NCBI GenBank assembly: GCA_018713375.1
Contig: DVOV01000077.1
Coordinates: forward strand, 1 to 8,631
Direction of reading: 5' to 3'
Length of the DNA: 8,631 nucleotides
From: Candidatus Scatomorpha stercorigallinarum
GTDB taxonomy: Bacteria > Bacillota_A > Clostridia > Oscillospirales > Oscillospiraceae
In this document: one piece after another, positions 6,699-8,631 of the stretch
Numbering within the stretch: the first letter of the stretch is position 1
How the letters are laid out: each line of letters begins with the position of its first letter
Program-made: the position numbers and the translations under genes
The notes under the pieces: generated by a model
What the model was told of the DNA's origin: nothing
What the model saw: the letters and a program-made list of their open reading frames with translations, nothing else
Database searches by the model: none

Positions 6699-6729
6699 AA
6701 AAGCCGCGGGGCACTGCCCCGCGGCTTTT
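6699..6729. terminator. Bidirectional intrinsic terminator
   Basis: GCCGCGGGGC (6703-6712) pairs perfectly with GCCCCGCGGC (6716-6725) around the loop ACT. The stem is flanked by four A on the left and four T on the right. It therefore has a T-run on each strand and sits between convergent genes, 56 bases after the plus-strand operon and about 85 bases after the minus-strand spoVT stop. It should end transcription from both sides. Confidence 0.9.
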
Positions 6730-6782: not shown

Positions 6783-6815
6783 CCAGGCGCAGCCTGGCAG
6801 CGGCCGTTGGCCGCT
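6783..6815. repeat. Two small GC-rich hairpins at the end of spoVT
   Basis: CCAGGC-GCA-GCCTGG (6783-6797) and AGCGGCC-GTT-GGCCGCT (6799-6815) are perfect inverted repeats with three-base loops. The second overlaps the minus-strand stop codon (6814-6816). Neither has a T-run, so they are not classic terminators. They may protect the mRNA 3' end or be remnants of dispersed repeat modules. A weaker GGGC-ACAA-type pairing lies at about 6765-6775. The rest of 6644-6813 holds no gene that I can see. Confidence 0.55.
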
Positions 6816-7266
6816 AGGATTCCATTTGCTTGCCGAGGAAGGCGGCGACGGTCTGGGCGAGCTTGTGCTCCACCTCGCCCGGGGGCGGGGCGTTTTTGGG
6901 CGCGGCGAAGAGCACGCAGCCCATGATATCGCCCTCCGAGATGACGGGCGCGGCGACGGCCACGCAAAAGCCGCTCTCGCCCTCGGTGATGGGCACGGAG
7001 CAGATGCCGCCGTCCTGGCGGAAGAGCCGGCGCGACTCCATGATCTGCTCCAGCTCGGGGCTGATGCGCTTGTCGAGCAGCTCGCGCCGCCCGCCGCCGG
7101 AGACGGCGATGACCGCGTCGCGGTCGCAGACCGCCGCGACGGCGTCCGTGGACTTGTGCAGCGAGTCGCAGATCTGCGCGGCGAAATCGGAAAGCTCGCC
7201 AATGGGCGAGTATTTCTTGAATATGACCTCCCCGTCCTTGTCCGTAAATATCTCCAACGGGTCGCC
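6814..7266 (-). pseudogene. spoVT: spoVT, 3' part only (interrupted, possibly restorable)
   Basis: These 150 codons match stage V sporulation protein T from GDPLEIF to the end. Diagnostic pieces are DGEVIFKKYSPIGEL, AVCDRDAVIAVSG and GEVEHKLAQTVAAFLGKQME. Bacillus SpoVT is 178 residues, with GDPLEIF starting near residue 31. The missing first ~30 residues hold the AbrB-type DNA-binding loop (RRIDDLGRVVIPKEIRRTL region in the family). What remains is the last strand of the AbrB fold plus the GAF-like sensor domain. SpoVT is a forespore transcription regulator that tunes sigma-G genes and germination. No good internal start with a ribosome site is visible at the junction; only a GTG with no Shine-Dalgarno sequence lies at about 7291-7293. 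The fragment cannot act as a regulator unless the 5' part is rejoined or an intact copy exists elsewhere. Confidence 0.9.
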
Positions 7267-8631
7267 GTCACCGATAACATTGGCGCGGAGCACCTTGTCC
7301 GTGTGGTGCGCTGCGCTCTGCACTACGCTCACCGGCTCCGTACCGCCGTTTCCGCCGCCTTCGCCGCCCTCGCCGCCGTACGCATCGGGAAGCTCGCCGC
7401 GGCGCAGCAGCGTGTCTATGTCGGCCTTGAGCCTTATCTCGACGTGGTCCTCAAAGACGTAGATGCGCTCTATGATGAGCTCCAGATCCTGCTTTTCCAA
7501 ATGCGGCTTGGCGAGGATGTCGTCAAAGACGTCCATCGCCGTCTTGGCGGCGCGGTTGGTACGGATGATGGCGTTGCGCTTGTCCGTGACGCGCTCGAGC
7601 TGGTTTTGAAGCCCCTCTATGCGGCGCATGAGGTCGGCCTCCAGCTCGTCGTAGGTCTCTTCGAGCACGGCCTCGTTCTCCGGGTGGCGCATGATGTCGC
7701 GCACGCGCTGCCGCTTGGTGGCCTTCAGCTCCTCCTGCGCGTCGAGCAGCACGTCCTCTAAATTCGCCGCGCTGCGCTCCGTCTCCGCCACGTCCTCCGG
7801 CTCGCGGGCTATCTCCGCGTTCAGCTCGGCGAGCATCTCCGCGGAGTTGTCACGCACCTTTTTGAGGTAGAGCTTCACGAGCTCGTCCAGCTTGTCCACG
7901 CGGATATGGTGCGTGGTGCAGCCGGCAGTGCCGCGCCGGTGATAGGTGCCGCAGGTGTAGGCGGGCTTCAGGTCGCGCCGCCCGAGGGCGAACATGGGCG
8001 CGCCGCAGTCGCCACACTCCAGGAAGCCGGAGTAGACGTTGTCGTTTATCTTCACGCCGCGGTAGTTGTACTTCGCGCGCTTTTCGCGCAGCGAGCGCAC
8101 GGTGGCGAAGGTGCGGTAGTCGATGATGGGCTGGTGGTGGTTTTCTATAACTATCTGCTCCGTCTCGTCGCGCCTTACGTCGCGGCCGTTTATCTTCGCG
8201 CGCTGGTACTTACCCTGGCGCAGGGTGCCGATGTAGAAGTCGTTGTCGAGTATCGTCTGTATCGTGACTATGCTCCACGCGCTCTTGACGCTGCGGCGGT
8301 AGTCCTCGCCTTCGGCTATCTTGCGCTCGCGCTCGGTCATGCGCGGGGTGGGGATGCCGTCGTCAGTGAGGGAGTTCGCTATGCGCTTGTAGCCCCAGCC
8401 GTCGATGTAAAGCCGGTAAATGCGCCGCACTATCTCCGCCTCGGTGGGGACGACCTCGAACTGCTGCTGTTTGTTGACGATGTAGCCGTAGGGTGCGGCG
8501 CAAATCCATTTGCCGTCGGCCTGCCGGCGGCGTATGACGGACTTCACCTTGCGGCTCGTGTCCGTGACGGGCATCTCGTTCAGGAGGAACTGGAACTGAA
8601 TTTTCAGCCAGTCGTCGTCATTGGGGAAGTC
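6814..8631 (-). CDS. Large serine recombinase fused in frame to SpoVT C-terminal part (5' end off window)
   Basis: One open frame of 605 codons plus stop runs to the right edge without a true start. The ATG at 8574 is internal, because the 19 codons before it (DFPNDDDW then KIQFQFLLNE) continue the recombinase fold. Numbering from the edge, residues about 27-135 are the recombinase DNA-binding domain (APYGY, YRLYIDGWGYKRIANSL, ILDNDFYIGTLRQGKYQ). A zinc ribbon follows with Cys206, Cys209, Cys227 and Cys238. A long coiled coil spans about 255-375, then a family-type segment ERIYVFEDHVEIRLKADI and a glycine-rich linker (419-430). The catalytic serine domain, about 120 residues, should lie beyond 8631. 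From residue 456 onward the protein is SpoVT. It is likely a transposon or prophage integrase; the fusion marks its integration junction. It points toward, and converges with, the plus-strand operon. Confidence 0.92.
   Translation of the reverse strand, partial: DFPNDDDWLKIQFQFLLNEMPVTDTSRKVKSVIRRRQADGKWICAAPYGYIVNKQQQFEVVPTEAEIVRRIYRLYIDGWGYKRIANSLTDDGIPTPRMTERERKIAEGEDYRRSVKSAWSIVTIQTILDNDFYIGTLRQGKYQRAKINGRDVRRDETEQIVIENHHQPIIDYRTFATVRSLREKRAKYNYRGVKINDNVYSGFLECGDCGAPMFALGRRDLKPAYTCGTYHRRGTAGCTTHHIRVDKLDELVKLYLKKVRDNSAEMLAELNAEIAREPEDVAETERSAANLEDVLLDAQEELKATKRQRVRDIMRHPENEAVLEETYDELEADLMRRIEGLQNQLERVTDKRNAIIRTNRAAKTAMDVFDDILAKPHLEKQDLELIIERIYVFEDHVEIRLKADIDTLLRRGELPDAYGGEGGEGGGNGGTEPVSVVQSAAHHTDKVLRANVIGDGDPLEIFTDKDGEVIFKKYSPIGELSDFAAQICDSLHKSTDAVAAVCDRDAVIAVSGGGRRELLDKRISPELEQIMESRRLFRQDGGICSVPITEGESGFCVAVAAPVISEGDIMGCVLFAAPKNAPPPGEVEHKLAQTVAAFLGKQMES
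7246..7272 (-). other. Putative attachment-site junction (element/spoVT boundary)
   Basis: On the minus strand the reading frame changes from recombinase tail (KVLRANVIG) to SpoVT (GDPLEIF) here. Since serine recombinases cross over at a 2-base core inside a short shared sequence, the core should lie within the codons for GDPLEIF or just before it. The exact core cannot be set without the other element end, which is outside the window. Confidence 0.6.
7267..8631 (-). mobile_element. One end of a serine-recombinase element integrated in spoVT (partial)
   Basis: Everything from the SpoVT junction to the right edge is recombinase coding sequence, so the element begins at about 7267 and continues past 8631. 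Only the integrase is visible; cargo, size and the other end are unknown. The recombinase gene lies at the element border with its 3' end touching the attachment site. Base composition is similar to that of the host genes, so transfer is argued from gene content rather than from GC. Confidence 0.75.
7342..7377 (-). repeat. GGN codon tract encoding a glycine-rich linker
   Basis: A CCG/CCT-rich run on the plus strand encodes a linker of twelve residues, nine of them glycine, broken by Glu and Asn (GGEGGEGGGNGG). It lies between the recombinase body and the tail that reaches the attachment site. It is a low-complexity codon repeat that could vary in length, and it probably acts as a flexible tether. 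Confidence 0.7.

Follow-up and report, generated by a model that had tools for sequence, protein, structure and literature searches.

A serine recombinase that ends in SpoVT

How does a large serine recombinase come to end in the body of a sporulation regulator, and what has become of the spoVT gene that it meets? In the window, by which we mean the whole stretch of 8,631 nucleotides analysed here, one open frame on the reverse strand (6814-8631) encodes 605 residues and is still open at the right edge, which cuts off its 5' end. As the preliminary description had read it, this frame passes from a recombinase into SpoVT without a stop: it is the C-terminal 605 residues of a 723-residue large serine recombinase, running in frame into SpoVT residues 31-180, and the 723-residue database protein P0001 is identical to it over all 605. 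Pfam identifies a Recombinase domain (PF07508; residues 62-185, E 4e-26; positions 8077-8448), a recombinase zinc ribbon (PF13408; residues 200-255, E 2e-13; 7867-8034) and SpoVT_C (PF15714; residues 479-604, E 3e-40). The spore_V_T profile TIGR02851 aligns over residues 448-604 (profile positions 22-180) with 158 bits against a cut-off of 236, a shortfall to be expected because the SpoVT N-terminus is missing from the fused frame. The recombinase joins SpoVT at Gly31-Asp32-Pro33 (codons 7266-7258), and the host part (6814-7266, reverse strand), delimited with Pfam, TIGR02851 and the intact SpoVT P0241, comprises spoVT codons 31-180 and the stop, that is, SpoVT_C and the last part of an AbrB-type domain. 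The first 118 residues of the recombinase, and the far end of the element to which it would belong, lie beyond the window edge.

Among solved structures, the SPbeta integrase YokA, present in a YokA-YotN construct, comes closest to the recombinase part (residues 8-566). A model of the full fusion is poor overall (mean pLDDT 56, pTM 0.28), with a well-folded SpoVT_C part (pLDDT 82-92, residues 601-720). A database search with the window protein scored 8000 candidates, and the same four domains occur in at least 120 proteins, these being the matches listed. The left part of the window resembles ordinary chromosome, with DUF711, DUF896, ThiI, CinA, an HpcH/HpaI aldolase and two histidine phosphatases, one of them with an HD domain; none of these seven genes gave a synteny match at E 1e-30 in the four loci compared (L001, L002, L062, L063), so the neighbourhood is uninformative. 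Between the spoVT body and the convergent HD-domain phosphatase gene, a GC-rich inverted repeat recognised by eye (6700-6729), with runs of A and T on its flanks, is probably a terminator serving both genes.

The fusion is not a peculiarity of one assembly. In a sample of 300 genomes of the family to which G004 belongs (G004, a carrier, is one of the 300), we found the recombinase in 45 (E up to 1e-120); 39 of the 45 match through to the last residues of SpoVT, 38 of them without a stop, which argues that the fusion in the window is not a chance event. Stops interrupt the fused frame in G041 and G161. In a class-wide sample the recombinase occurs in 5 of 291 genomes (E up to 1e-150), G004 among them, and the named hosts among the loci fetched include Flavonifractor, Oscillibacter, Butyricicoccus, Agathobaculum, Dysosmobacter and Angelakisella. 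Isolates that carry the element include Butyricicoccus pullicaecorum DSM 23266 (L030), Agathobaculum butyriciproducens DSM 100391 (L040) and Flavonifractor sp. An100 (L003).

The 5' part of spoVT lies at the far end of the element in relatives

The preliminary description had placed a split of spoVT near codon 30 and predicted that the other end of the inserted element would carry a 5' fragment in the same orientation. Relatives bear out both. Loci were fetched with P0001 from the best 80 of the 95 genomes that encode a relative; most of these are fused and several are intact spoVT genes. When 12 genomes were searched with an intact SpoVT, 11 proved to be fused, and no second, intact spoVT was found in any of the 11 (G010 has a partial, stop-bearing match of 46%). 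Ten of the 11 carry instead a separate piece of about SpoVT residues 1-35 (9-35 in G006); none was found in the remaining one, G008. In 12 genomes (G004, G010, G011, G012, G089, G139, G156, G163, G191, G205, G212 and G260) the piece encoding residues 1-33 shares contig and strand with the fused gene and lies 12-81 kb upstream of it, as read from the sequence in 11 and from coordinates only in G191; in G089 and G139 the contigs measure 4.3 and 2.9 Mb. Thus both parts of spoVT are kept on one strand in relatives, the window itself displaying the 3' part. G043 was left out of the 12, as its two spoVT pieces stand in the opposite order.

Across the family sample, the far-end junction pattern was detected in 33 of 300 genomes: 23 of the 45 carriers and 10 genomes that lack a recombinase match, the latter counting against the integration model set out below. 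Three arrangements are unexplained by a single insertion: a 5' fragment 16 kb before an intact spoVT in G184 (L115 3230, L116 521), a 5' fragment downstream of the fused gene in G043 (L117/L118) and two 5' fragments in one genome in G007 (L095, L096). The fragment orders in G184 and G043 are not predicted by the model.

Junction sequences and a symmetrical attP

The two ends share a precise boundary. Twenty-four 5' pieces end in RRT(M/L)RIR(E/D)-GDP and continue for 23-28 residues, typically like SQTTLxxWxxFCFxMLxLxKRxGW (L091 and L115 diverge most), and the fused genes typically read KVFHANVISD-GDPLEI(Y/F). At the DNA level, GGYGACCC is common to both element ends and is read in the same frame on both sides; such core repeats are what site-specific integration would leave, presumably by the action of the element's own integrase. 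When attP was joined in silico from 15 genomes it proved near-palindromic, with 73% complementarity over 20-base arms when GA is taken as the centre; the 24 other integer centres tried give 9-40%, and attB gives 41%. This dyad symmetry locates the crossover without recourse to homology; for the window it predicts the GA at 7263-7262, within the att core (7258-7266, reverse strand) at the element/host junction. The adjoining P-type half-site of the element end (CCAATGTTATCGGTGACGG..., 7262-7286, reverse strand), recognised from the relatives' attP, codes for the last residues before GDP.

Over the native tail, pN/pS is lower when 24 sequences are read in the tail's own frame than in either alternative frame (19 stop-free sequences for each), although all-pairs pN/pS is near saturation and of little use. 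The 65 fused sequences were excluded as evidence for frame selection because the collecting script demanded an open frame.

A far-end junction also occurs inside an acetyltransferase-like gene of G209 (C52; L110 about 1051, reverse strand; ...DMD-GDPSQTT...), a possible secondary insertion site. Five database proteins (P0126, P0156-P0158 and P0211) likewise run into other sequences after GD.

Candidate circle forms and intact alleles

If the element circularises, its recombinase must end with the tail found on the 5' piece. A search scored on the predicted tail end only (136 proteins, the best 120 listed) ranked P0121-P0125 first, and four of these (P0121, P0123, P0124 and P0125) are recombinases of 597-616 residues with a native-type tail and no SpoVT domain. 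The fifth, P0122, has such a tail too, and its contig looks chimeric because the front of the protein belongs to another gene. The tail of P0124 (36 members) is identical to that at the far end of the element of G004 (L082). The counterpart, an empty allele, is represented by P0241, an intact SpoVT of 180 residues that is 99% identical to the body in the window, with the 5' part restored; given this allele, the insertion is probably not fixed in the species of the window. Assemblies contain sequences that match both predicted products of excision, although the circle-form proteins could alternatively stem from tandem copies or assembly joins.

In Angelakisella massiliensis (L051 9977-11846) a recombinase with a different C-terminus stands directly before an intact spoVT. 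No spoVT 5' fragment was found in that genome, which also counts against the integration model.

Recombinases and SpoVT bodies have partly separate histories

Among the 120 matches listed, the 320 pairs whose recombinases are at least 99% identical have SpoVT bodies that are 59-100% identical (median 77%), and at L044 and L046 recombinases 98% identical precede bodies 61% identical. For 57 full-length fused loci the distance matrices of the two parts correlate at 0.33; none of 999 permutations exceeded 0.18, which indicates some common history of element and host. Near-identical recombinases with divergent bodies nevertheless argue that the element moves between hosts, a transfer deduced from sequence comparison: the SpoVT body appears to be for the most part the host's, and the recombinase to belong to a mobile entity. 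The preliminary description had been prepared to give way if recombinases of this family carried a SpoVT-like tail of their own away from any insertion; this does not apply, since near-identical recombinases carry different bodies and separate 5' fragments accompany 10 of the 11 fused genomes.

In 13 chosen pairs of fused loci the SpoVT bodies have dN/dS of 0.03-0.34, indicating purifying selection. We did not accept this as a sign of long residence, as the recombinase and SpoVT parts give discordant synonymous distances for most of the 13 pairs; together with the existence of an intact allele 99% identical to that of the window, this disagreement suggests that SpoVT conservation may reflect element-free periods.

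A prophage was considered and rejected: no relative of P0001 was found among the viral contigs of IMG/VR at the sensitivity used. Among the ORFs read by eye no phage structural or packaging genes were obvious; a family scan, which covered the partner protein described below and two ORFs from the cargo of L098, found in one of the two ORFs DUF5906 and a sub-threshold match to D5_N, domains known also from phages.

Cargo, a small partner protein and the recombinase promoter

The cargo, read by eye, varies widely (transporters, a methyltransferase-like gene, symporters, polysaccharide genes). In the 48 loci with at least 1.5 kb upstream of the recombinase, many of them partial, two relaxase queries detected a MobA-like relaxase in nine, L051 included, suggesting mobilization for a minority; a RhuM-like gene stands upstream in six. 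Far more constant is a small protein of about 85 residues with a WLT motif, present upstream in 43 of the 48. It is a single copy on the recombinase's contig in 17 of 17 chosen recombinase-positive genomes. No copy was found in the 21 genomes chosen from those with no match to the recombinase; of these 21, five (G130, G184, G209, G223 and G272) display a far-end-type junction. The copies of G003 and G007 contain an in-frame stop, and the element of G011, a genome outside this comparison, has two copies. The protein has no match in Pfam, PHROG or NCBIfam; its model is locally confident (pLDDT 89, pTM 0.51), and a fold search with it returned no solved structure at E of 0.001 or less. Directionality factors are described, in the available part of one report, as mostly small and mutually unrelated (PMC5025042), which makes the partner protein a natural candidate for such a factor, a role proposed from co-occurrence.

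Of 54 regions upstream of the recombinase, 41 contain a promoter of vegetative type, in which a TTG -35 box precedes the TACAAT -10 by 16-18 bases. In 39 of 43 scored regions the hexamer that follows the -10 agrees with GTTATC in at least four positions, compared with 3.6% of all 6-mers in those regions, and the attP arm reads CAATGTTATC, comparable to this motif. Self-repression by binding of the integrase at its own promoter is plausible from this resemblance, while shared descent alone could conserve the motif. Strict patterns for sporulation sigma factors were found upstream of the partner protein in at most 1 of 38 regions for any sigma, and before the recombinase in at most 1 of 17: sigma F matched once in each set (expected 0.0) and sigma K once in the 17 (expected 0.2). 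The strict sigma A pattern of the same scan matched 0 of 38 and 0 of 17 and so missed an evident promoter, which makes the sporulation-sigma negatives weak.

An integrative element that probably uses spoVT as attB

We consider it very probable that this is a site-specific integrative element, sometimes mobilizable, for which spoVT is the attB and which has the C-terminus of its integrase rewritten at each recombination. The window would comprise the right end of such an element, which in relatives measures 12-81 kb. The element's large serine integrase would recombine an attP located inside its own 3' coding sequence with attB at spoVT codons 31-33; upon integration, the spoVT 5' piece (codons 1-33) would gain the integrase's native tail of 23-28 residues, and the 3' piece (codons 31-180) would become the new integrase C-terminus. 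Excision would reverse both swaps, rebuilding spoVT and returning to the circular element its native integrase. At the level of sequence, relatives provide both ends, the core, the attP symmetry, circle-form proteins, empty alleles and bodies that do not follow the recombinase; from these we infer that this recombinase itself performs the recombination, that excision requires the partner protein as its directionality factor and that carriers are without SpoVT until excision occurs. Excision would most likely follow the transfer cycle of the element rather than the sporulation programme, and most spores would arise in cells or lineages with a rebuilt spoVT. Empty alleles, element exchange and circle-form integrases fit repeated loss and regain.

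The preliminary description had favoured a skin-like element, and of this the splitting of spoVT stands; sporulation-timed excision does less well, given the vegetative-type promoter, the lack of a clear sigma signal in a scan of low sensitivity and an element that looks to be moving horizontally. A programmed excision before or in the forespore, turning spoVT on while the circle is kept and reinserts after germination, therefore seems to us rather unlikely. In its favour, spoIVA was matched in 249 of the 300 family genomes, with 44 matches among the 45 carriers and 205 among the 255 non-carriers (Fisher p 0.002), part of this difference being expected because genomes without spoVT cannot be hosts. 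Purifying selection on the SpoVT bodies points the same way, although it may date from element-free periods. In C. difficile, according to the available part of the report, a spoVT mutant makes no heat-resistant spores and spoVT is under sigma F and sigma G (PMC3789822); its skin integrase, again from the part available, is also expressed vegetatively, the directionality factor being the sporulation-controlled component (PMC5025042). The scarcity of strict patterns for sporulation sigma factors ahead of the partner protein (at most 1 of 38 for any sigma, in an insensitive scan) speaks against the switch. We find improbable the more elaborate arrangement of a two-state integrase, of which the native-tailed circle form would integrate and the SpoVT-tailed form would sense signals of sporulation and, together with the partner protein, excise in the forespore line. 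Each forespore would then inherit an uninterrupted spoVT along with a circle able to reinsert once the spore has germinated, which would make this a heritable and cyclic counterpart of skin in a forespore gene.

The same spoIVA counts, although from one marker only, weaken the other proposal of the preliminary description, a plain knock-out of spoVT in lineages that have stopped sporulating, as do the low dN/dS of the SpoVT bodies and the persistence of open spoVT pieces at both ends. The failure to find another intact spoVT in any of the 11 fused genomes, the wide separation of the 5' and 3' pieces, the one carrier without a spoIVA match (G267) and the two stop-bearing fused frames would agree with disruption, and we nonetheless hold it to be quite improbable. 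A stable functional fusion, in which the SpoVT sensory domain has been recruited to the recombinase, would explain why the joins are frequent and in frame and why the SpoVT_C part folds well; we rejected it as highly improbable, since the bodies track the recombinases weakly, recombinases with a different, conserved tail exist, and matching 5' fragments lie elsewhere in the same genomes.

Relation to known systems

The integrative element that we favour resembles skin, SPbeta-spsM, vfbin-spoVFB and yin-yabG in lying inside a sporulation gene with a short shared core and in an excision that would rebuild the gene. Some of these use a large serine recombinase, as the present element does. It differs from them in its target, a forespore regulator cut at one site in many species, in the swapped integrase tail, in having no relatives found among the viral contigs of IMG/VR and in yielding no clear sporulation-sigma signal in an insensitive scan. 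A further parallel is gin in gerE of Bacillus cereus, likewise an island without phage character that encodes serine recombinase and lies in the gene of a sporulation regulator; gin, in the available part of its description, has three recombinases and demonstrated excision at sporulation, and the present element has one recombinase (PMC5595907).

SSV-type archaeal integrases and Brujita-type mycobacteriophages also have attP in a coding gene whose product is changed by integration; there the gene is split or truncated, whereas the present integrase stays open and exchanges its tail. The serine-recombinase IMEs of Bacillota (the Tn4451 group, IME_Rho_tet and others), as far as the available parts of two reports describe them, share the single large serine recombinase, the specific site in a host gene, a relaxase in some members and spread among gut bacteria (PMC12904643, PMC5704250). 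Unlike them, the present element has its attP inside the integrase coding sequence and a host gene supplies the new integrase C-terminus, and a relaxase was seen in only nine of 48 loci.

At codon ~11, spoVT is also interrupted by a second element (L073 11682-11765; L097 around 7908; L121 1501), which is unrelated to the present one, has tandem serine recombinases and is closer to gin. In G166 the spoVT parts that it separates lie ~54 kb apart on one strand (C11 127307 and 182176), and in G006 spoVT is cut at codons 11 and 33, with three pieces on three contigs. When this second element is circularised in silico (L073/L124, L097/L121), TTGACA and TATAAT come to stand 17 bases apart across the joint in both genomes, so that excision would make a promoter; Tn4451 reportedly forms such a joint promoter for its recombinase.

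Implications for spoVT and sporulation

Three chimeras (P0151, P0220 and P0229) are annotated as 'stage V sporulation protein T' or 'stage V sporulation T C-terminal domain-containing protein', meaning that database proteins named SpoVT, such as P0220, can be integrase chimeras. Among the open-access papers listed for these subjects, judged by title and abstract opening, none describes this element.

The interrupted genes sigK, spsM, spoVFB, gerE and yabG are, as generally described, mother-cell genes, in which an excision dies with the cell. SpoVT, unlike the product of sigK, acts in the forespore, so that a rebuilding there would be inherited; the preliminary description was sound in remarking that excision before or in this compartment is heritable. 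How much depends on it may vary between hosts: deletion of SpoVT causes a severe sporulation defect in B. cereus and, in the available part of the report, none such in B. subtilis (PMC5061766). Should spoVT be as necessary here as in C. difficile, carriers would have to rebuild it in order to sporulate. Related bacteria thus carry a spore gene either whole or cut in two, and an element in a forespore regulator offers a clean test between sporulation only after its loss and a managed, reversed excision in the germ line; the finding also offers a candidate directionality factor together with its integrase and sites. More speculatively, such an element might explain the uneven sporulation of some gut commensals.
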